Positions 8,473 to 23,178 of a stretch of DNA of 29,270 nucleotides are shown piece by piece. The first letter of the stretch is position 1, and each line of letters starts with the position of its first letter. The notes under the pieces were generated by a model that saw nothing but the letters and a program-made list of their open reading frames with translations, searched no databases and was not told the DNA's origin. Location: the IMG/VR virus record IMGVR_UViG_3300009161_000167, positions 1 to 29,270 of that record. One strand, 5' to 3'. Both the position numbers and the translations under genes were made by a program. The DNA comes from a virus.

Positions 8473-8693
8473 CAGATGAGCAGATACTAATTGTCAAGGC
8501 GGCTAGATCGTTGCACCAACTCGGTGCGATGGCGGCACGGTTTGACGCTGTCGCACGGTCGCAAGAGAGTTGCAATCTGGCTACGGCGTTTGAAGTCAAA
8601 CACGAATTGCTGGCTTATTGCAATCGCAACGGGATATCGGCAGTGGAATTTAAAGAACGGGAATACAAGGAGAATCTTGATGACACCGCTTGA
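8460..8693 (+). CDS. Hypothetical helical protein, 77 aa
   Basis: Start ATG 8460 (MHSMTDEQILIVKAARSLHQ), chosen because AGGAGG lies ten bases upstream. A second in-frame ATG at 8469 is possible. Mostly helical, with no membrane part. It overlaps both neighbours. No family is recognised. Confidence 0.62.
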   Translation: MHSMTDEQILIVKAARSLHQLGAMAARFDAVARSQESCNLATAFEVKHELLAYCNRNGISAVEFKEREYKENLDDTA

Positions 8694-8967
8694 TTTTATC
8701 GCATCGTTACCACACGGTGAGGCCAAGGCTGCGGCGTTGACGGTCTACAACCTGATGACGCCGGTGTGGACCGAAATCACTGACGATCCGGCAACGCTGC
8801 CGGAGAATGGGATGTGGCTCGAAGGGAAAAATAAGCAACGTAGGTTTCTGGCGATGTGGGGGAACTCCACAGAACCAACAATAAAAAAGTGGAAGTCGTA
8901 CGATTTTTTTGACCGGAAGTACGGATCGAGAAACACCATGACGCCTACACACTGGAGGCCGATCTGA
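8680..8967 (+). CDS. DUF551-like small protein, 95 aa (paralogue 1)
   Basis: Start ATG 8680 with AAGGAGA eight bases upstream. The C-terminus TPTHWRPI matches the T-H-W-x-P ending of DUF551 proteins, a widespread phage family of unknown function, and the same ending is found in the next gene. The middle holds aromatic positions (WKSYDFFDRKYG). Its last codons TGG AGG CCG ATC also supply the GGAGG ribosome binding site of the next gene, eight bases before that ATG. Confidence 0.62.
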   Translation: MTPLDFIASLPHGEAKAAALTVYNLMTPVWTEITDDPATLPENGMWLEGKNKQRRFLAMWGNSTEPTIKKWKSYDFFDRKYGSRNTMTPTHWRPI

Positions 8968-9218
8968 TGAGCGAATGGATCACCCTGGACGGCACGCCCG
9001 ATAAACTGCCGCCGCCTTTCCAATTAATCGCGGTTCGGACCACCGAGGGATTCGAGTTTCTTGCCACCCGTGATGCAGATCCAGAAAAGTATCGTGACTG
9101 GTGCTGGTCGAAAGTTGTCAACCCGTATTGGCACTCTGATAAGCAAGCTATTGTCTTCGACGAGCAAGACTTGGAACCGCAGGACTGGATTGTTACTCAT
9201 TGGAGGCCGATCGCATGA
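8967..9218 (+). CDS. DUF551-like small protein, 83 aa (paralogue 2)
   Basis: Starts on the last base of the previous stop codon. MSEWITLDGTPDKLPPPFQL followed later by VTHWRPIA is the DUF551 pattern (W-I-x at the start, T-H-W-x-P at the end). It is distinct in sequence from the gene before it, but shares ending and gene junction: again TGG AGG CCG ATC places GGAGG eight bases before the next ATG at 9215. Function unknown. Confidence 0.7.
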   Translation: MSEWITLDGTPDKLPPPFQLIAVRTTEGFEFLATRDADPEKYRDWCWSKVVNPYWHSDKQAIVFDEQDLEPQDWIVTHWRPIA

Positions 9219-9544
9219 GCTGCCCTGACTACTACTTACTGACCTCAGGTCGTGAATTTATCGACTTCGCAAACACCGAGCTTTCCGCCTGGCTAAAACC
9301 ACGGGTCTCTCACGAGGTCTATCACTGCATAATCTCCGCAATGGAACATCGGTTCCGGTGCGGAAATAAGCCCGGCGAAGCGGAGACGGACAAATCAGCA
9401 GAAGAGTTCTGGCTTTCGCGGGCAGTGTGGACCCACGTCAAATCTCGCACCGGGCCTTACTTCATGAGCGATATCATGCCAGTAGTTCTGGCGATGGTGG
9501 ATTCCGAGCGGCGCAAGAAAGATCTAAAGAAGGTAAACTCATGA
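9215..9544 (+). CDS. Hypothetical protein, 109 aa
   Basis: Start ATG 9215, overlapping the previous stop. Mainly helical, with VYHCIISAMEHRFRCGNK and FWLSRAVWTHVKSR segments and a basic C-terminus (RRKKDLKKVNS). The spacing of aromatic and charged helices is faintly like phage DUF3310/nucleotide-kinase-related small proteins, but I cannot confirm this. Four-base overlap with the resolvase gene. Confidence 0.62.
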   Translation: MSCPDYYLLTSGREFIDFANTELSAWLKPRVSHEVYHCIISAMEHRFRCGNKPGEAETDKSAEEFWLSRAVWTHVKSRTGPYFMSDIMPVVLAMVDSERRKKDLKKVNS

Positions 9545-11318: not shown

Positions 11319-11648
11319 ATGCCACCTAACATCCAAAACCTTCGACCACCGTGGCCCAAAGGAACGTCTGGCAACACCGGTGGGCGTCCCAAAAAGCCGC
11401 TCCAAGCAGCCCTTGAAACAGAGCTGGCGTCCAAGCCCGAACTCCTGCGGGCGATGGTGCAAAAGGGCTTGAAGATGGCTCTGGAAGGTGACTTCCGTTA
11501 CTGGTCAGCAATCTGGGACCGGCTGGACGGTAAGGTTCCGCTACCGATCTCTGTGGAGCCGGTGAACACTGAAGATTACGGCATCCTAGTTGAACTACCT
11601 AAACCAGAAATTACCGATGGCGAAAAAAACATTAATTCAGGCGACTGA
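11319..11648 (+). CDS. DUF5681-type protein, candidate terminase small subunit
   Basis: 109 residues from ATG 11319, chosen because GGAGA lies eight bases upstream. The N-terminus PPWPKGTSGNTGGRPKKPLQ is the DUF5681 signature (W-P-K-G-x-S-G-N-x-G-G-R-P). The rest is helical (LLRAMVQKGLKMALEGDFRYW). Proteins of this kind sit directly before large terminase genes in many phages and are good small-subunit candidates. It overlaps the terminase gene by 32 bases. Confidence 0.75.
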   Translation: MPPNIQNLRPPWPKGTSGNTGGRPKKPLQAALETELASKPELLRAMVQKGLKMALEGDFRYWSAIWDRLDGKVPLPISVEPVNTEDYGILVELPKPEITDGEKNINSGD

Positions 11649-12780
11649 CCCACAGAAGCAATTTTGGGCTGACGAATCGAAGTTTACAGCATTCGTCGGC
11701 GGGATCGGATCAGGCAAGACCTTTGCAGGTGCATTGAAGGTGCTCACCATGCCCTCCAACAGCACCGGCATGGTGCTGGCTCCAACCTTCCCCATGCTTC
11801 GGACCGCTTCACTACGAGCGTTTCTGGATATCGCAAGACCTGCGGGCCTGATCGAATCGTTTAACAAATCCGACTACGAAATGGTGCTCAAAGGCAACCG
11901 CACCATTTATTGGCGATCGGCTGACAACCCCGACCGGCTCCGTGGTCCTAACTTGGGGTGGGTCTGGATGGACGAATCCGCCATGATGGATGAAGAGACA
12001 TGGCTTATCGCGATCGGTCGCTTAAGGCAATCACCCGGCCAGGCATGGATGACCAGCACGCCCAGGGGCACACGTCACTGGCTTTACGACCTGGTCAAAA
12101 AGGCTCATGTTTCAGTCACCACAGCCACATCGGCAAGCAACCTGTTCAACCCTGACGACTTTGTTTCCAGCGTCTCGTCAATCGGCTCCGCTGACTGGCA
12201 GCGGCAGGAACTTGGTGGCGAGTTCGTTGAACCGGGCGGGACATTGTTCAAACGGCACTGGTTCAATTCGGTCGACAAATTGCCAGACGGCGAACGATTA
12301 TCAGTCCGATCATGGGACACCGCAGCCACAAGTGGCGGGGGCGATCATTCGGTGGGTCTGAGGATGCACAAGATTGACGGCAAGTATTATGTGGACAGTG
12401 TGATCCGTGGCCAGTGGGGACCGGACGAGCTGGACACCATCCAGCAGCAGACAGCCGAAACCGACGGGCAGGATGTCTCGATTATCTTGGAACGCGAACC
12501 GGGATCGGCGGGCAAGCGAATTAACCAATACACCCGACTCGCTTTGTCTGATTACCACGTGGTCGAAGAGAGCCACACGGGCGGCAAGTATCAACGGGCG
12601 TTGCCATCAGCCAAGGAAGCGGCTCGTGGCGGGATTGTGCTGGTCAAGGGCAATTGGATCACCGCATTTCTCGATGAGATCGCTGATTTCAATGGCGAAA
12701 AAGATCAGGTGGATGACCAGGTGGACGGGCTTTCGCTGGCCTTCAACTACCTGTTTCGAAAAGTGGGCGTATCACTGTAA
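11617..12780 (+). CDS. terL: Terminase large subunit
   Basis: 387 residues from ATG 11617 (MAKKTLIQATDPQKQFWADE). An upstream TTG at 11590 is less likely. The ATPase has Walker A GGIGSGKT at 28-35, Walker B WVWMDE at 115-120 and a coupling motif STPRG at 147-151. The RNase H-type nuclease begins with D234 in RSWDTAA and continues with ILEREPGSAG and a C-terminal DDQVDG acidic segment. It pumps phage DNA into the prohead and cuts it. All functional motifs appear intact. The ribosome binding site is poor, so it probably relies on coupling to the gene before it. Confidence 0.95.
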   Translation: MAKKTLIQATDPQKQFWADESKFTAFVGGIGSGKTFAGALKVLTMPSNSTGMVLAPTFPMLRTASLRAFLDIARPAGLIESFNKSDYEMVLKGNRTIYWRSADNPDRLRGPNLGWVWMDESAMMDEETWLIAIGRLRQSPGQAWMTSTPRGTRHWLYDLVKKAHVSVTTATSASNLFNPDDFVSSVSSIGSADWQRQELGGEFVEPGGTLFKRHWFNSVDKLPDGERLSVRSWDTAATSGGGDHSVGLRMHKIDGKYYVDSVIRGQWGPDELDTIQQQTAETDGQDVSIILEREPGSAGKRINQYTRLALSDYHVVEESHTGGKYQRALPSAKEAARGGIVLVKGNWITAFLDEIADFNGEKDQVDDQVDGLSLAFNYLFRKVGVSL

Positions 12781-15824: not shown

Positions 15825-16187
15825 ATGAGTGCTGCATTCTTTCAGATCACGGACATCGAACAGGGTGCCGATTGGGCGTTGCTTTTGAACCTTCAAAACA
15901 GCGACGGATCGGCCACAAATTTGACCGGTTGCACACTGAAGATGCAGATCAGGACCGCACCTCTGGACGCAAACGGGACGGTACTTGCCAACCTGACGAG
16001 TAGTAACGGTGGGATCACAATCGTTTCGGCAATCGCAGGCCAAACCAAGATCGCTTTGACAGCCAACCAGACCGCGAACATTCCTGCGACGAATAATTTC
16101 TTCGACGTGTTTTTGACGGATGCCACCGGCAGGACGACACGACCTGTGGAGGGCGGCGCAGCGATCCAGCCGCGAATCACCTCATGA
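15825..16187 (+). CDS. Small beta-rich tail/fibre-associated protein, 120 aa
   Basis: The pattern QGADWALLLNLQNSDGSATN, then LTGCTLKMQIRTAP and a C-terminal YFDVFLTDATGRTTR-type strand, fits the beta-sandwich N-terminal domain found in BppU-like baseplate/fibre proteins. Four-base overlap with the next fibre gene. It opens the fibre cluster. The match is by pattern only; an adaptor linking fibre to virion is the likely role. Confidence 0.6.
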   Translation: MSAAFFQITDIEQGADWALLLNLQNSDGSATNLTGCTLKMQIRTAPLDANGTVLANLTSSNGGITIVSAIAGQTKIALTANQTANIPATNNFFDVFLTDATGRTTRPVEGGAAIQPRITS

Positions 16188-17047
16188 TGACCAACCTGAC
16201 CATCCGGCAATCCTCGCCCGGCAACATCACGATCCGTGGCGAGACCACCGCGTTGACGGTCCGTGGTGCTGCACCCAATACGCTCACTTTACGATCTGAT
16301 ACGGGTGGCTCAATCCTCGCCCCAGCGACCACCACTACTCTGGGCGGGATCATCGTCGGTGACAATCTGTCGATCAACGCCAACGGGCTGCTGTCGGCTC
16401 AGGCAGGAGGTGTGACGGCGTTCAACGGGCGGGCGGGCAATGTTTCGCTGACGGCGAACGATGTTTCTGGCGTTGCGAACGGGTTGTATTTCCCGCTCAA
16501 TGGCAACGTGACTTGCGGGATTGTGACGGCACCGGCATCAGTCCAGGTGAATACTTATTCCAGTCCAAATGAAACCAAAACCATTTATGGCGAGATTAAA
16601 TCGTATTTTGTAGGTACGACCCAGTACACACAATATATCGGTATGCAGCCGGGTGTCACAAATTCTGATCAGTCAGTCGTTTTTGGATCACGCTTTTACG
16701 AGACTGAACCGACCTTTCAGAATCCTACTGCCGGATGGAGGCAATCCGAGCTGTCGATGTCTGCTGCGGTTATTGGGCTGCGATCCACGATCCGTTACGC
16801 CAACGGGACAGCTCAACGCGATATGGGATTCTCCTCTAATATACTTGGCATGAATTTCTACTTTAGCGACCCGCAAATACAGTGTTCAATTGCGGCTAGT
16901 TCGACAGGCATCCAGCTCAATGGACTTGCAAAAGCTCCGTTGCCAGCAGGCGCATCAGCGAGCGTCCCGTCTAGTATTAACCCCATGCAGATCATGAACA
17001 AAGACACCTGCGATAAACTCTACGCCCCTTTTCAGAAGTTGAACTAA
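16184..17047 (+). CDS. Tail fibre-like protein, 287 aa
   Basis: Ala/Thr/Asn-rich N-terminus with TTTTLGGIIVGDNLSINANG, the T-L-G-G-I-x-V-G-x-x-L motif frequent in fibre shafts. It is followed by FNGRAGNVSLTANDVSG and a globular C-terminal part rich in Tyr and Ser. It starts at ATG 16184 on the previous stop; ATG 16187 is an equal choice. Probable fibre or receptor-binding component (inference from motif and context). Confidence 0.68.
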   Translation: MMTNLTIRQSSPGNITIRGETTALTVRGAAPNTLTLRSDTGGSILAPATTTTLGGIIVGDNLSINANGLLSAQAGGVTAFNGRAGNVSLTANDVSGVANGLYFPLNGNVTCGIVTAPASVQVNTYSSPNETKTIYGEIKSYFVGTTQYTQYIGMQPGVTNSDQSVVFGSRFYETEPTFQNPTAGWRQSELSMSAAVIGLRSTIRYANGTAQRDMGFSSNILGMNFYFSDPQIQCSIAASSTGIQLNGLAKAPLPAGASASVPSSINPMQIMNKDTCDKLYAPFQKLN

Positions 17048-17048
17048 C

Positions 17049-17459
17049 ATGAGCGTCTTCACCTCAAAACACAAAGGCGTGATCCAGTCGTTCGCAGGAG
17101 CGGGCAACGGCACATTTTGTGTCGGCGGCTGGCAATATTACGAAGCCAATCTCCCCACGGGCGAAGTGGATGCCAACGGGACCCCGCTTTACGCGATCTA
17201 CGATATTCCGCAATCCACAGTGATGTACGCAGTTGATGACACGGGCAATGGTTGCGAGTTGAAGATGACACCCGCAAGCTATCAACTTTCATCAGCCAAC
17301 GCCACTCTCAACAACGTCACCGTCTGGTCAGCCAATTCGATCCTGACGCAGGACCGAGGTGATGGGCGATATGCCCCAATCCTAAGCACCATTGACGGTG
17401 GCACGGCAACATCCACATCCACAGGCTCTTTTGATGGTGGGAGTGCAATCGCAAACTAA
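17049..17459 (+). CDS. Tail fibre-associated protein, 136 aa
   Basis: Beta-rich protein whose C-terminus has SILTQDRGDGRYAP, the D-R-G-D-G-R-Y motif seen at domain ends in fibres, then a Gly/Ser/Thr-rich tail (GGTATSTSTGSFDGGSAIAN). The stop codon TAA shares its last base with the ATG of the next fibre gene, so the two are made together. It may have been one fibre with its neighbours. Exact role unknown. Confidence 0.6.
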   Translation: MSVFTSKHKGVIQSFAGAGNGTFCVGGWQYYEANLPTGEVDANGTPLYAIYDIPQSTVMYAVDDTGNGCELKMTPASYQLSSANATLNNVTVWSANSILTQDRGDGRYAPILSTIDGGTATSTSTGSFDGGSAIAN

Positions 17460-18310
17460 TGGCACTAATACAAGTCAGACGCGATACCGCTGCAAACTGG
17501 GCTACAGCCAATACCACGCTGGCAACGGGCGAAATCGCCTTTGAAACCGACACGGGAAAGTACAAGATTGGGAAAGCCTCCACAGCATGGGCATCGCTCG
17601 GATACGCAGCCGCCAAAGATTACAGCGACCTGACAGGCACTCCAAATCTGACGATTTATCTGACCACAGCAAATGCAACGTCAACCTATCTCCCATCGGC
17701 TAACTTCACATACGCGAATCTCACAGGTACGCCAAACTTAACGATTTATCTGACCACAGCAAATGCATCTACGACTTATCAACCATTGGGCAACTATGCC
17801 ACGACATCCTGCCTGACCTTTGCCAATCTTACAGGCAAGCCAACAACGCTGTCAGGCTATGGCATCACGGACGGCTACAGCACAAGCAACCCTTCCGGCT
17901 ACATCACTGCTGGTGCAAACAGCTTTACAGGGTCGCAGAATTTACAGGATAACGAACTGATCCGAGCCAAGATTCGAGACTATAGCGAAACGGTTTCCAG
18001 CCCAACGATCTCAGCCGGAACGCTGACATTAAACCTTGAAACGTCCAATATCTTCACGGTCAGCCTCAACGCAGCCATCACAAGCATAACGATCAGCAAC
18101 CCTCCTGCAAGCGGCTCTGGCGGCTCATTTACCTTGATATTTACTGCTGACGGCACTGCACGGGCAGTCACTTGGCCTTCGGCGATTAAATGGGCGGGCG
18201 GCACTGCTCCAACGCTCACATCGACATCTGGCAAAGTGGATAGCTTTGCGTTCTTAACCTCAGATGGTGGAACGAATTGGCAGGGTTATGTTGGAGGTCA
18301 AAACTTCTAA
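17459..18310 (+). CDS. Tail fibre protein with Mtd-N-like start and internal repeat
   Basis: 283 residues. The N-terminus (IQVRRDTAANWATANTTLAT, GEIAFETDTGKYKIG) matches the small trimerising domain that starts many fibres, including the Mtd N-terminal family. A 30-residue unit (LTGTPNLTIYLTTANA) is repeated once, then comes YGITDGYST, another common fibre motif. The C-terminal part is a beta domain. It is overlapped by the glycine-rich gene, which suggests fibre plus tip adhesin made as a pair. Confidence 0.78.
   Translation: MALIQVRRDTAANWATANTTLATGEIAFETDTGKYKIGKASTAWASLGYAAAKDYSDLTGTPNLTIYLTTANATSTYLPSANFTYANLTGTPNLTIYLTTANASTTYQPLGNYATTSCLTFANLTGKPTTLSGYGITDGYSTSNPSGYITAGANSFTGSQNLQDNELIRAKIRDYSETVSSPTISAGTLTLNLETSNIFTVSLNAAITSITISNPPASGSGGSFTLIFTADGTARAVTWPSAIKWAGGTAPTLTSTSGKVDSFAFLTSDGGTNWQGYVGGQNF
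17651..17767 (+). repeat. In-frame direct repeat in tail fibre gene
   Basis: A 27-base sequence starting ACGATTTATCTGACC at 17651-17677 recurs exactly at 17741-17767, 90 bases (30 codons) later. The surrounding codons are similar but not identical. It is a substrate for slippage or recombination that would change fibre length by 30 residues. Confidence 0.85.
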
Positions 18311-19236
18311 TGATTGCCAACATAATTCGCAATAGCAAAAAGACAATAAGCCTCGATTATCTGATTGTCGCTGGTGGGGGATCTGGGGGATCAGGATCAA
18401 CATTTAATGCTGGTGGTGGCGGAGGTGGAGCCGGAGGCGTTTTGCAAGGAACAATCGGCGTCAATGTAGGCGGCACTTACTCATTAATGGTTGGTACTGG
18501 TGGGGCTACCGCTGCGCCGTTTGCTTTAGGGAACAACGGTACAAGCTCTATTTTCAATACTTTTACGGCGATCGGTGGTGGTGCTGGTGCAAGCCATACG
18601 GTGCAAGGTCAATCGCCAAACAATATTGCAGGATCTGCGGGTGGTTCTGGTGGTGGTGGATCTGGCTCAACTGCTCTGGGTGGAACTGCTGGAGTTGGTG
18701 GTGCTGGAACTGCTGGTCAAGGCAATAACGGTGGGGCTGGCGATAACAATCAACCGTTAAATGGTGGTGGTGGCGGTGGTGCTGGTGCTTCTGGGGGTGC
18801 GTCTGCTACTGGTTCAAACGCAAGGGCTGGAGCGGGTGGTGCTGGCATTTCGTCAAACATCACCGGGAACGTAACTTATTATGGAGGTGGTGGAGGTGGT
18901 GGAATTTATAGCTATAACGGTTCGCCTTATATCGGTGCTTTGCAAGGGCTAGGTGGCATCGGAGGTGGTGGCAACGGTTCAGGAAATCTTTCAACGGCTG
19001 GTGCAAACGGCACAGCAAATACGGGTGGAGGAGGTGGTGGTGGCACTACTAATGATCCTTCTCCAAGAACTCCCGGCGGGACTAATGGTGGTGCTGGTGG
19101 ATCTGGAATCGTAGTTCTTCGATTGCCATCAACAAATTCAATCACCGTTTCTAATCTCACTTATTCGTCGGACACAGTCGGGGCTAACCTCGTATACAGC
19201 TTTACATCCGGCAACGGCACAATCTCAATCGCATAA
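18310..19236 (+). CDS. Glycine-rich receptor-binding candidate (adhesin)
   Basis: 308 residues from ATG 18310, overlapping the fibre stop codon. It opens SLDYLIVAGGGSGG and is dominated by Gly runs (up to seven) separated by Asn, Ser, Thr and Ala. It ends GGAGGSGIVVLRLP plus a short beta tail. This is the glycine-rich domain pattern in which poly-Gly-II helices pack in a sandwich and the loops between them contact the receptor, as in T-even gp38-type tip adhesins. Codon use (many GGT) differs from neighbours. Receptor binding is inference; the domain class is well supported. Confidence 0.75.
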   Translation: MIANIIRNSKKTISLDYLIVAGGGSGGSGSTFNAGGGGGGAGGVLQGTIGVNVGGTYSLMVGTGGATAAPFALGNNGTSSIFNTFTAIGGGAGASHTVQGQSPNNIAGSAGGSGGGGSGSTALGGTAGVGGAGTAGQGNNGGAGDNNQPLNGGGGGGAGASGGASATGSNARAGAGGAGISSNITGNVTYYGGGGGGGIYSYNGSPYIGALQGLGGIGGGGNGSGNLSTAGANGTANTGGGGGGGTTNDPSPRTPGGTNGGAGGSGIVVLRLPSTNSITVSNLTYSSDTVGANLVYSFTSGNGTISIA

Positions 19237-19245
19237 GGAGCAATC

Positions 19246-19803
19246 ATGCAATATTGCCAAGTATCGCCCAACGGTCAAATCTCCGGCCCTCAGTGGCTAC
19301 CACAGTCATTCGCCAATGTCAGCAACTTCCACACGTTGGACACTGATATTCTCGCTCAATACGGGTTCTACCCTTACACGCCTTCGGTCAAGCCGACAAT
19401 CAATCCAGCGACAACTCGACTGGATCAAGTGTTACAACTGGTAGGCTCGAAGGTCACCGAGACATGGATTGTGGTTACGCTCACACCCGATGAGCAAATG
19501 GGCTATTTGATCTCACAAAAAGTGATGCTGAAACAACTCTTAGATCAGCACATGGACGCCCAGGTTGCGCCCCGTGACTTCGATTCGATTCTGACCGCAA
19601 TCACATGGTCAGACAGCACCGTGCCGCAGTGGGCATCAGACGGATCCGCAGCCAAGACCTTCCGTGAGCAGTGTTATACCGTTGCATATAAGATCGAAAC
19701 GGACGTTCTGGCAGGACTTCGCAGCGTACCCACGCCAGCCCAATTCACATCTGAAATGCCCGTGTTGTGGGCACCACCTTCAAACGCGAACGGGACATCA
19801 TGA
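19246..19803 (+). CDS. Tail fibre assembly-like protein, 185 aa
   Basis: Preceded by a good AAGGAG. The N-terminal part (LDTDILAQYGFYPYTP) and the C-terminal part (WASDGSAAKTFREQCYTVAY, then VPTPAQFTSEMPVLW) follow the layout of phage fibre-assembly/DUF4376-like proteins, where an aromatic C-terminal domain with a helix and a P-x-x-x-E-x-P-x-x-W ending is usual. Placed directly after the adhesin, it may help its folding or attach to it. No known chaperone is matched with certainty. Confidence 0.6.
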   Translation: MQYCQVSPNGQISGPQWLPQSFANVSNFHTLDTDILAQYGFYPYTPSVKPTINPATTRLDQVLQLVGSKVTETWIVVTLTPDEQMGYLISQKVMLKQLLDQHMDAQVAPRDFDSILTAITWSDSTVPQWASDGSAAKTFREQCYTVAYKIETDVLAGLRSVPTPAQFTSEMPVLWAPPSNANGTS

Positions 19804-20342
19804 AGCGAATACTTGCGATACTGCTGATGAGCCTACCTACCGTGCAGAGTGCCGAAATCATTTTCGACACGCTCGATAAACCGATCACAAATCTCGTTTA
19901 CACGGGGGCGAATCAGTGGATCTGGCAAGAGTTCAATTCAGGTAACGCTGACACGCTTGACAACTACTTCCTGAACGTGTCGATACCCACATTATCCACC
20001 AATGGCTATCTTTACGTCACATTCGTCGACACTCCAAGTCAGACGCCGATATTATCCTGGCTCTCCCAATGGAGGCTTGATTCGATCCCTACAGATCAGG
20101 TGACAACGCTCGGTTTCTCACGGTTCCCAGAGCATTTCCGACTTGACGTGCAGATGATTCCCCACACGAAGTATTTTTTCGGCATGTCTGGGACCGTACC
20201 TGTGGCATGGGCAAACACCGCCGATGGTTTTTCGGCTCGACTGGTCGCCAATTACATCACGCCAGAACCGCAAACGTGGATAACTGCTATCGTTGCCACA
20301 ATTGCAATGACCGCAATAATTATAGCAAAGGTAAAACGATGA
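19800..20342 (+). CDS. Secreted protein with PEP-CTERM-like sorting tail, 180 aa
   Basis: Residues 1-18 (MKRILAILLMSLPTVQSA) look like a signal peptide cut before Glu19. The body is beta-rich and aromatic. The C-terminus is the striking part: P155-E156-P157, then a hydrophobic stretch (about 159-176, WITAIVATIAMTAIIIA) and the basic end KVKR. That tripartite tail is the PEP-CTERM signal recognised by exosortase in several Gram-negative groups, including planctomycetes. The protein may be exported and handled at the lysogen's or infected cell's surface, for example to block a receptor. An alternative is a simple membrane-anchored lysis or exclusion protein. ATGA-type overlaps join it to both neighbours. 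Confidence 0.65.
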   Translation: MKRILAILLMSLPTVQSAEIIFDTLDKPITNLVYTGANQWIWQEFNSGNADTLDNYFLNVSIPTLSTNGYLYVTFVDTPSQTPILSWLSQWRLDSIPTDQVTTLGFSRFPEHFRLDVQMIPHTKYFFGMSGTVPVAWANTADGFSARLVANYITPEPQTWITAIVATIAMTAIIIAKVKR

Positions 20343-20812
20343 TACTCGCCACCCTCGCCACGCTCCTGCTCGCCTTCGCGCCACCATTCGACGCCAAGGT
20401 GGTATCCGTCCACGATGGCGACACGATCACCGTGCGAACGGATGAAACGATCAAGATCCGCATCAACGGAATTGACGCGCCAGAACTGAAACAACCGTTC
20501 GGACAGGCTAGCAAACAAGCCATGTCAGGGTTGGTATTCGGCCAAACCGTCACCATCAAGCCAGATAAAAAAGACCGTTACGGACGGCTTCTGGCACGCG
20601 TTGAAATCGGCAGTAAAGACACCAGTTTGACGATGGTCGAACTAGGCATGGCGCACTGGTATGAGGCTTATGCCAAACACGACACCCAATTGCAATCCGC
20701 TCAGACACAGGCCAAGACAGCCAGACGGGGCCTGTGGTCGGATCCCAAAGTGGTTGCACCTTGGGACTTTCGGAAAGCCGGTAGACCACCAACGAAAGGT
20801 GAAAAAAAGTGA
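20339..20812 (+). CDS. Secreted SNase-like (thermonuclease family) nuclease
   Basis: 157 residues. A short signal peptide (MILATLATLLLAFAPPFDA) is followed by a complete SNase domain: VHDGDTITV, IRINGIDAPELKQPFG with the R, D and E of the active site, and RYGRLLARVEI with the second arginine. It should cut DNA and RNA outside the cytoplasm, with Ca2+ as usual cofactor. Placed between the PEP-CTERM-like gene and holin-like genes, it may destroy entering foreign DNA in the periplasm, recycle host DNA, or thin released DNA at lysis. The last codons overlap the next gene (GTGA). Confidence 0.86.
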   Translation: MILATLATLLLAFAPPFDAKVVSVHDGDTITVRTDETIKIRINGIDAPELKQPFGQASKQAMSGLVFGQTVTIKPDKKDRYGRLLARVEIGSKDTSLTMVELGMAHWYEAYAKHDTQLQSAQTQAKTARRGLWSDPKVVAPWDFRKAGRPPTKGEKK

Positions 20813-21030
20813 TTAAAGATATTTTGGGTCAGGTCAATTACAACCAAGCACGCATGACGATCATACGGGCAGCCGGTGTGGGGCTTATCACGGCACTCGG
20901 AGTGGTATCAACTGATCTGCCAAAAATCATTGATACACTCGCACCGCTGGGACTTGCACTCACTTTTGCAATCGGCCAACTTGCCCATTACCTCGCATCT
21001 GGCGATAAACTCCCACCCTCGCTGAGCTAA
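20809..21030 (+). CDS. Holin-like small membrane protein, 73 aa
   Basis: GTG start at 20809, with AAAGG about ten bases upstream. Two likely membrane helices lie at about 17-35 (TIIRAAGVGLITALGVVS) and 42-64 (DTLAPLGLALTFAIGQLAHY), with short polar ends. This is the layout of class II holins. Its neighbours (secreted nuclease, second membrane protein, peptidase) support a lysis role. Holin families are too diverse to assign one. Confidence 0.6.
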   Translation: MIKDILGQVNYNQARMTIIRAAGVGLITALGVVSTDLPKIIDTLAPLGLALTFAIGQLAHYLASGDKLPPSLS

Positions 21031-21035
21031 CACCA

Positions 21036-21308
21036 ATGCAACCGACTGATATTCCGGCCACCGCTGATTATTCAATTCTCACAATCCCCATCTGGTTTGT
21101 ATATTCCACCTGGACTGTTGCGGATATCGCAATTCAGCCGGAGGAATCAGTTGTGATTGCATTTATCAGATCTATTCCCGCCATGCTGGCAACAGCAGCG
21201 GGGGTCATTCAGGCGATCTACTCGATACGCCTCAAACGCGAAAAAATGGCGATCGAAAAGGAATTGAAACTCAAAGAACTTGAGCGACGCTTCCCCGATC
21301 CAGATTGA
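21036..21308 (+). CDS. Second holin-like membrane protein with charged tail, 90 aa
   Basis: Two hydrophobic segments (about 12-33 and 38-64) are followed by a highly charged helix, RLKREKMAIEKELKLKELER. This fits a holin or antiholin with a cytoplasmic coiled tail. It lies five bases after the preceding membrane gene and is followed by an intrinsic terminator at 21349. The ribosome binding site is weak. Confidence 0.6.
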   Translation: MQPTDIPATADYSILTIPIWFVYSTWTVADIAIQPEESVVIAFIRSIPAMLATAAGVIQAIYSIRLKREKMAIEKELKLKELERRFPDPD

Positions 21309-21348
21309 GATCCGTGGCCCGCCTGCTGGGATGAAGCCACGTCAAATG

Positions 21349-21376
21349 GTGTTCCCGAAAACTGTTTCGGGAACAT
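21349..21376 (+). terminator. Intrinsic terminator inside the lysis region
   Basis: TGTTCCCGAAA (21350-21360) pairs perfectly with TTTCGGGAACA (21365-21375) around a four-base loop, plus one G-U pair, and is followed by TCCTCTATTTCC. It separates the holin-like genes from the Cys-rich gene. Confidence 0.7.
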
Positions 21377-21408
21377 CCTCTATTTCCCTTAAAAACAAGG
21401 CTCAACAC

Positions 21409-21636
21409 ATGCTCGCAGAACTCTTTATCGTCACCGCTCAGAGCTGTCAGAACGGTCAATGTCCACCTGCCGTGCAATCCTCGGTAGTTGCCACCACCGT
21501 GACTGTCATCAACAGTACGCAAGTTGCACCAGTCGTGTTCGTTGCGACAGCACCACCACGGCTTGCACGATGGCGTTTCCCGAACATCTTTCACCGACCA
21601 ATTGCAATTGGGTGTTATGGCGGGAAATGCAAATGA
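21409..21636 (+). CDS. Small Cys-containing protein, 75 aa
   Basis: Start ATG 21409 is chosen because it lies after the terminator and has AAGG eight bases upstream; an earlier in-frame ATG at 21280 would run through the terminator hairpin. C-x(4)-C pairs lie at both ends (SCQNGQCPP, GCYGGKCK), with a hydrophobic centre (SSVVATTVTVINSTQVAPVV). Possibly exported or disulphide-linked. ATGA overlap with the next gene. Function unknown; a spanin-like or lysis accessory role is only a guess. Confidence 0.5.
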   Translation: MLAELFIVTAQSCQNGQCPPAVQSSVVATTVTVINSTQVAPVVFVATAPPRLARWRFPNIFHRPIAIGCYGGKCK

Positions 21637-21878
21637 CACCAACCGCATCAACCGAAGACCGGAATAACATGGGCTTCCCGCTCATCCCATTTGCGGTCCT
21701 GTGGCCTCTGATCAGGCTGGTAGCCGTTCCATTAATCCAGTCAGTGTTGCCAGCACTACTCCGCAAGATCGCTGACACGCTCGACTCTGGCGAGCCAGGC
21801 ACTATCTCCGCCGATGAGTTGGGTGAATTGATTGACGGTCAGAAGTCGCAAATGCACGCAGTCTACAAGGGGGAATGA
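21633..21878 (+). CDS. Small membrane protein, 81 aa
   Basis: Start ATG 21633 overlaps the previous stop. A long hydrophobic helix or hairpin (FPLIPFAVLWPLIRLVAVPL plus IQSVLPALL) is followed by an acidic helical tail (TISADELGELIDGQKSQ). Overlaps with both neighbours show it is part of the same transcription unit. Could be a further holin/antiholin-type protein. Confidence 0.58.
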   Translation: MTPTASTEDRNNMGFPLIPFAVLWPLIRLVAVPLIQSVLPALLRKIADTLDSGEPGTISADELGELIDGQKSQMHAVYKGE

Positions 21879-22384
21879 TGCTCAAGTCACTGGCACTACT
21901 ACTGACATTTGCCGTGCCGGTGATGGCAGACACGGGACAGGCGACATCCCTGCCCGCCATGTCAGAGTCGTCATGGATCTTTGTCGATCAAGGCAACACC
22001 TACCTGATCGGCAAACAATCCGGCTCGGTACTGATCCTGCGGTCTGGTGACGAGCCGCGACCACAACCACGACCGATACCGATACCGATCCCTGATGCGA
22101 TCACGGGCGTTAAGTGGTTGAGCGTGATCGTTGACACGGACAACCCCGATCAGGCGGCGTGGCGGACTGATTCCGCCCTTAGAACAGAAGTCGAGCGCAA
22201 GGCGATCAATTACCGCTCGTATCTGACGAGCGAATCGGACGTTGACAGCCTTGGATTTCGTGCGTTATTGCAATCGACCGGCACGCCGTGCGTTATCCTA
22301 CAGGACGCAAACGGCAAACTGGTCAAGACGATTCGGCCTGCCAATCTTGCCGATATCATGGCGATTCTGGAGGCGATCAGATGA
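21875..22384 (+). CDS. Exported protein with Pro-rich linker and thioredoxin-like domain
   Basis: 169 residues. Signal peptide (MLKSLALLLTFAVPVMA) using ATG 21875 or 21878, a short beta part, a Pro/Arg-rich linker (PRPQPRPIPIPIPDAITG), and a C-terminal domain of about 90 residues. That domain ends GTPCVILQDANGKLVKTI and a helix, recalling the cis-Pro strand and last hairpin of thioredoxin. The usual C-x-x-C is absent, so redox activity is doubtful. It directly precedes the papain-type peptidase, overlapping by four bases, so it may be its partner in the envelope. Confidence 0.6.
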   Translation: MMLKSLALLLTFAVPVMADTGQATSLPAMSESSWIFVDQGNTYLIGKQSGSVLILRSGDEPRPQPRPIPIPIPDAITGVKWLSVIVDTDNPDQAAWRTDSALRTEVERKAINYRSYLTSESDVDSLGFRALLQSTGTPCVILQDANGKLVKTIRPANLADIMAILEAIR

Positions 22385-23178
22385 GCCAGCCCGAACTATT
22401 TCCCTGCTTCGGGAACGACTGGCGTGGCATGGGCAACCGTCCACCGTCGATCAGCCTAAAGCTCGGTTCGCAGCCACTTCCCGCCATCCTGCCAAGCGAA
22501 TGGGTGGAATTCGATCTCACCGCATCGCCAAACTTCCCAATAAAGATCAAAGATCAAGGGCAGTTCGGTGCCTGCAACGGACACGCCGCAGCCACATCGC
22601 TGGAAGTGGCTCGCTGGATTGCCGGTCAACCTCATATCGACCTATCACCCTGGTTGATTTATGCCGATCTGTGCCGTGGTTGGGACACCGGGTCAAGCAT
22701 TGCCGAGGCACTCCAACTACTTGAGAAGTCAGGCACTTGCGAGACTTCGCTGGTTCCATTCGGCACAATCAACCCATCGTCAGTCAAGCAACAGGCTCGC
22801 AACGATTGCAAGCGATTCAAAATTGAGATCGGTACGACACTCCTGACTTGGGATGATTTGTGCGTTGCAACGCAGCTGCGACGACCGTTCAATTTCTCGA
22901 TCCCAGTCAACACCGGATTCAATGCACTCGACGCCAACGGTTGCCCATCGAACAGGTCAGGCTCGCACAACCACGCCGTGATGGGCGGGCTAGGGATGCG
23001 AAAGGCCGCTGATGGGCAATGGCTCATCAGGTGGCAGAACAGTTGGGGTACGCGATGGGGTCAAAATGGGCGTGCCTGGCTGTGTGAACGGAACATCGAG
23101 GGCTGGGGTTTTGATGCCTACAGTGTCTCGGCAATTGCAACGATCACGCCTGACACGGCACCTGCTCTTGCATCTTGA
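22381..23178 (+). CDS. Papain-family (C1) cysteine peptidase
   Basis: 265 residues. All four C1 signature residues are in place: oxyanion Q59 (KDQGQFG), nucleophile C65 (FGACNGHAAATS), H198 (GSHNHAVMGGL) and N220 in WQNSWGTRWGQNG. There is no signal peptide and no obvious propeptide beyond about 50 residues, so export would need the holin or virion. Being last in the holin-like cluster, it may act as the endolysin or cut surface protein on entry. Phage lysins of the papain fold normally belong to CHAP or NlpC/P60; a true C1A pattern with N-S-W-G is unusual. Peptidoglycan versus protein as substrate cannot be told from sequence. Confidence 0.85.
   Translation: MSQPELFPCFGNDWRGMGNRPPSISLKLGSQPLPAILPSEWVEFDLTASPNFPIKIKDQGQFGACNGHAAATSLEVARWIAGQPHIDLSPWLIYADLCRGWDTGSSIAEALQLLEKSGTCETSLVPFGTINPSSVKQQARNDCKRFKIEIGTTLLTWDDLCVATQLRRPFNFSIPVNTGFNALDANGCPSNRSGSHNHAVMGGLGMRKAADGQWLIRWQNSWGTRWGQNGRAWLCERNIEGWGFDAYSVSAIATITPDTAPALAS

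Follow-up and report, generated by a model that had tools for sequence, protein, structure and literature searches.

A papain-type peptidase with an exported partner, a candidate proteolytic lysis effector in a mobile phage gene cassette

What might a papain-type cysteine peptidase do at the end of a phage gene cassette that resembles those used for lysis? The window (the whole stretch of DNA analysed here, a linear virus record of 29,270 bases that is a fragment of a genome) encodes such an enzyme as the last member of a run of co-directional genes, given below in their order along the DNA. An earlier note on this DNA had placed the papain gene at the end of a cassette, and that cassette is conserved among relatives as tail fibres, small membrane proteins, an exported partner and the papain.

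15825..19803, + strand: tail-fibre part of the apparently mobile cassette, comprising gp15825, gp16184, gp17049 and gp17459 (tail-fibre family), then a glycine-rich protein and gp19246
within 15825..19803, + strand: gp19246, a putative fibre-assembly protein, by position
20207..20812, + strand: staphylococcal-nuclease-type (SNase-type) protein (PF00565, E=1.2e-24)
20809..21030, + strand: TM1, a 73-aa hydrophobic protein, holin-like in appearance only
21036..21308, + strand: TM2, small and hydrophobic, its C-terminus charged; it resembles a holin or spanin in appearance only
21280..21636, + strand: small Cys-containing ORF (QSCQNGQCP...CYGGKCK) that overlaps its neighbours and has relatives at the equal position
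21459..21878, + strand: small protein containing a single, strongly hydrophobic segment, conserved in relatives in its C-terminal part only
21875..22384, + strand: exported partner, built from a signal peptide, a small beta domain at residues 33-56, a linker rich in Pro and a thioredoxin (Trx) fold at the C-terminus
22381..23178, + strand: C1 papain-like cysteine peptidase of 265 aa, signal peptide absent, with an N-terminal segment of ~45 residues followed by the peptidase domain; active site Q59, C65, H198 and N220

The papain gene is real and intact, is under purifying selection and encodes a predicted peptidase. Its product matches Peptidase_C1 in Pfam (PF00112, E=3.5e-8; score 34.2 bits, cut-off 20.7) and phrog_16701, named ‘peptidase’, in PHROGs, and its closest solved structure by sequence is xylellain (3ois, E=8.9e-6). 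An AlphaFold2 model built with 38 homologues has a mean pLDDT of 86, and a Foldseek search with it returns xylellain first (E=3.9e-13) and then cathepsins. The catalytic Gln, Cys, His and Asn stand in the C1 order; Q59, C65 and H198 show no variation across the 38-40 homologues aligned, and at least 90% of them retain N220, with G in its place in one (L024). Among close relatives Ka/Ks is 0.04-0.09, synonymous changes far exceeding non-synonymous ones, and we therefore take the product to be a functional protein rather than an accident of the sequence. The Pfam match, the fold match and the Ka/Ks values rule out a chance likeness to papain, and the claim that this is a true papain-type peptidase with these four catalytic residues stands. 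PF00112 was the sole Pfam match; we found neither an I29-type propeptide (E up to 0.1) nor a muralytic catalytic or cell-wall-binding domain. The missing I29 propeptide does not exclude the protein from family C1, since this element is typical of eukaryotic papains and not of every member. The gene starts at the ATG at 22381, which shares four bases (ATGA) with the stop of the upstream gene; a longer ORF with a GTG start is not the papain gene, because the ATG is kept among relatives while the in-frame sequence 5' of it varies.

The genes upstream are harder to classify. Small hydrophobic proteins do precede the papain, as had been proposed, but their description as holin-like goes too far: neither TM1 nor TM2 matches a holin family in a profile search at E up to 1. 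The nuclease gene has a likely internal start, which would give the protein a signal-peptide-like N-terminus, and the true start of the ORF at 21459..21878 is probably internal as well, because only its C-terminal part is conserved. We note separately an ORF at 19767-20342 that ends in a PEP-CTERM-like tail (TPEPQTW, a hydrophobic stretch, KVKR) and, close to its beginning, contains a stretch resembling a signal peptide; a search for a PEP-CTERM Pfam match was negative, and a host exosortase may act on its product.

No lysin is visible within the window. The contigs of relatives are circularly permuted with respect to it (BLAST), and one of them, G005 (36.3 kb), extends past the end of the window, where tail-tip genes and a handful of small genes lead on to the integrase that stands at the start of the window. 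Because G005 closes the circle in this way, as inferred from gene order, the segment absent from the window is open to inspection in a relative. For G005 and G006, and then for G016, G022 and G023, each protein cluster was represented by one member in a Pfam scan, which also took in the proteins of G033 and G034. The G005 and G006 representatives were compared with PHROGs as well; the input consisted of greedy ORF calls of at least ~60-65 aa, leaving out genes labelled as head or integrase. No lysozyme, amidase, CHAP, NlpC/P60, M15, M23 or transglycosylase domain was found in these seven among the matches listed, and Amidase_2 was seen in 0 of 27 records. A canonical lysin in the segment outside the window was thus looked for through G005 and not found. 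The earlier note had seen no lysozyme, amidase or CHAP gene here, and the scans of relatives agree with it, among the matches listed; a standard endolysin elsewhere in the genome, which would have spoken against its proposal, did not appear in the near-complete relatives scanned.

The lack of a familiar lysin is not in itself evidence that the papain takes its place. At ~22 loci, including those of the near-complete G037 and G039, a short exported Trx-like protein is encoded and the papain is absent; TM1- and TM2-like genes are seen in G037 and G039, and prohead protease and capsid are retained. No lysin family was recognised in G037 or G039 among the matches listed, so either this group has a lysin of an unfamiliar kind or lysis can proceed without the papain. 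Because papain-less relatives too are without a recognisable lysin, the absence of a known one does not alone make the papain the lysin. The same group weakens the idea that the partner is solely a papain inhibitor, since it keeps the Trx-like gene. Where fully read, its short Trx-like gene lies directly 5' of a Mu F-like head gene (L256:13615-14004; 22 loci L368-L389).

One of the small cassette genes may instead encode an unrecognised lysin, or release may be non-lytic; in either case the papain would only assist. The presence of TM1-like, TM2-like and Trx-like genes in the papain-less group fits this, as does a planctomycete phage reported to be released chronically and to leave its host unlysed (PMC10945688); with such release described, a missing lysin need not imply a new one. 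We nevertheless regard this explanation as unlikely, as on its own it leaves unexplained both the occupation of one slot by two papain lineages and the constant match of papain and partner, which we describe below.

The planctomycete host that had been suggested for this phage is not borne out. A terminase scan gave mixed phyla, the best match (35%) being in a Planctomycetota contig; a DNA-pattern profile scan of bacterial genome contigs found no relative of the phage papain, and 392 genomes of the phylum of that best match yielded only remote papain and remote capsid matches. Examination of a prophage whose capsid shows 25% identity told us nothing about the host. The accompanying view that planctomycete envelopes offer few classical cell wall targets is at odds with the finding that these bacteria possess lysozyme-susceptible peptidoglycan sacculi (PMC4432640).

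The gene that precedes the papain offers a second line of evidence. The papain had been said to overlap a secreted thioredoxin-like protein, and we find a 4-base overlap, an export signal by sequence and a predicted Trx fold, although the CXXC redox motif is absent from the alignment of partner homologues. The C-terminal domain is predicted with pLDDT >90, and its top Foldseek matches are thioredoxin-fold proteins (probability 1.00, at an E of only ~3e-3); no Pfam or PHROG model matches the window's partner. In G040 the partner homologue has a lipobox-like sequence at its N-terminus.

A second papain lineage (papain II; ~300 aa, PF00112 confirmed, and ~15-21% identical to the lineage in the window, papain I) occupies the papain slot of related contigs. 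The partner beside papain II retains the N-terminal domain, whereas its C-terminal domain is of another type and looks helical. Papain I stands with the Trx-type partner at all 66 of its unique loci and papain II with the helical type at 10/10, so that the types match in 76/76; this count covers unique loci with enough sequence to judge and sets apart six remote homologues, two of which were later found with a Trx-like partner. Every locus with a full-length partner type and enough sequence also has the matching papain type. The papain II phage G034 and G009 have many structural proteins that are 86-96% identical, and differ in their papain and partner type. We infer that papain and partner interact physically, although linkage between adjacent genes could arise by joint transfer, without protein contact. 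Three new points are secure: the exported-partner/papain module, the co-variation of types, and the replacement of one papain lineage by another in a single slot. We also note that in some phages (G002 11466-12236, G040 8520-9290, L183:3269-4108) partner and papain are separated by an inserted PAPS-reductase/ATP-pyrophosphatase-like gene; papain I modules have one, and so does a papain II module, where the gene is a different one.

Relatives of the papain are encoded in 94 IMG/VR stretches, and the cassette, from tail fibres to papain, is found beside several unrelated head and tail gene sets. To judge from gene content, the cassette moves between unrelated head modules, which speaks against a role bound to one capsid type and fits functions directed at the host envelope, because fibres and lysis genes both serve these. 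At 17459-18310 of the window, part of a tail-fibre gene is ~97% identical to a gene of G009, a phage with unrelated head and tail genes, and this points to a recent exchange of the cassette.

This mobility bears on two other roles. One is that of a second head-maturation protease, suggested by the position of the papain between the prohead protease and capsid genes in the window, and likewise in G005, G006 and G008. As the main reading, head maturation is ruled out by the cassette's occurrence beside unrelated head modules; the same papain accompanies these, a separate S78 prohead protease is present, and the papain-less phages keep prohead protease and capsid. We give a role of this kind hardly any credence. 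The other is that of a virion-associated protease, in the tail or with the fibres, that would cut a surface protein layer at entry. In its favour, the papain travels with tail-fibre genes across different head modules. It is, however, a separate single-domain protein in which no fibre-attachment or oligomerisation domain was recognised (Pfam, PHROGs), it is paired with an exported partner, and its cassette is common to phages with very different tail proteins, all of which makes this role quite improbable.

A stronger competitor is that papain and exported partner form a moron module, which would digest host proteins, block superinfection or alter the envelope of the lysogen, with no part in lysis. 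Integrases are carried by these phages (one is present in the longer relatives), the partner and the nuclease look exported, some relatives do without the papain, and distant phage papains lie outside lysis regions. Against this, the papain sits inside a presumed late operon, with tail-fibre genes on one side and head genes on the other, which is an atypical site for a moron; the full-length partner type always has its matching papain where the sequence suffices; and no other recognisable lysin was found in the relatives scanned. We therefore consider a moron module somewhat unlikely, but a serious contender.

Papains of other phages point in both directions. At E up to 1 the window's papain matches only 3 of 50,697 records. 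In phage THSA-485A a papain gene lies directly 3' of that for a GH25 lysozyme (an endolysin) with a peptidoglycan-binding domain, and the two proteins share a similar C-terminal segment (14/32 identical, pairwise E=7e-9). Foldseek matches in BFVD include C1 peptidases of uncultured phages (best 47% identity) and also phage proteins called ‘Peptidoglycan binding-like’ and ‘N acetylmuramidase’, these being names only. The cysteine protease gene of Streptomyces phage Sycamore is located close to the integrase, within a tRNA array, and in gut phage DP SC_2_H4_2017 the papain lies beside nucleotide-metabolism-like genes and not in a lysis region; at the latter locus a small lipobox-bearing protein overlaps the papain start (L324:5630-6537), and here too an exported protein thus comes immediately 5' of a papain. 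Remote papains in the 595-kb uncultured phage LR756511 (L045, 29% identity) and in G028 (L102, 46% identity) each come after an exported protein that has a Pro linker and a Trx-like C-terminal part (E 8e-9 and 1e-10 by profile comparison), which suggests that peptidase and partner meet outside the cytoplasm. LR756511.1 in fact carries two different papain-like genes (L045, L326), one with an exported Trx-like partner and the other apparently without.

Taken as a whole, the evidence is best explained, in our view, by the papain being the proteolytic effector of a lysis, or envelope-breaking, cassette, a reading to which we give not far short of an even chance. For it speak the conserved peptidase, the pairing with the partner, the slot shared by two lineages, the presence of the cassette beside unrelated head and tail modules, the two remote papains that also have an exported Trx-like protein upstream, the absence of a recognisable lysin from the relatives scanned, the THSA-485A papain that adjoins an endolysin and has a C-terminal segment in common with it, and the lysin-type names in BFVD. 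Against it speak the papain-less group, the location elsewhere of the Sycamore and DP SC_2_H4 papains, the lack of a holin family match for TM1 and TM2, and the possibility of linkage without contact. It is the papain-less group without a recognisable lysin that keeps us from rating it higher, and the term ‘protein-degrading endolysin’ is a plausible one for the enzyme.

More specifically, and here we are more tentative, a papain-type proteinase might open the envelope in place of a peptidoglycan hydrolase, guarded or guided by a dedicated exported partner in which the C-terminal domain changes along with the proteinase lineage. The papain would accumulate in the cytoplasm, perhaps restrained by its own N-terminal segment, until TM1 and TM2 permeabilised the inner membrane and allowed it to cross. 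Outside the inner membrane it would meet the previously exported partner, which might dock, position or restrain it, and it would then cleave envelope proteins. Papain enzymes of family C1 cleave ordinary L-peptide chains, and protein links are for this reason a likelier target than peptidoglycan cross-bridges.

If the papain does act in lysis, it would represent a protease-based exit route for tailed phages and a tool against envelopes that are held by protein. The module provides a concrete case in which to ask what phages without a recognisable lysin use instead, and the 76/76 matched pairs amount to a direct prediction of a protein-protein interaction. Even if the papain is no lysin, its module occurs commonly in IMG/VR contigs, and the window's partner has no Pfam or PHROG match. 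In the literature searched, we saw no C1 papain described as an endolysin, and papain is absent from the main text of a 2025 survey of viral lytic proteins (PMC12596118).

Lastly, the papain can be set beside known systems. Xylellain of Xylella fastidiosa is its best match by sequence and by predicted fold, is of similar size and also has an N-terminal segment before the domain, but it is a cellular enzyme without a phage partner and is only ~22% identical. The papain of THSA-485A, like phrog_16701, is a C1 papain of tailed phage, and its gene adjoins that of a GH25 endolysin; unlike the window's papain, to which it is 28.5% identical over 70%, it has no exported Trx-like partner and has a canonical lysozyme alongside. 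The L045 and L102 papains have an exported Trx-like partner upstream, as here, and differ in their genome backgrounds. CHAP and NlpC/P60 endolysins share with the papain a broad fold class and Cys-His chemistry, whereas the window's papain matches C1 (PF00112) and neither of those families. The holin-endolysin cassettes of tailed phages likewise run from tail fibres through small membrane proteins to an enzyme without an export signal; in the cassette described here the enzyme has a proteinase fold rather than that of a peptidoglycan hydrolase, the holins are putative, and a dedicated exported partner accompanies the enzyme.
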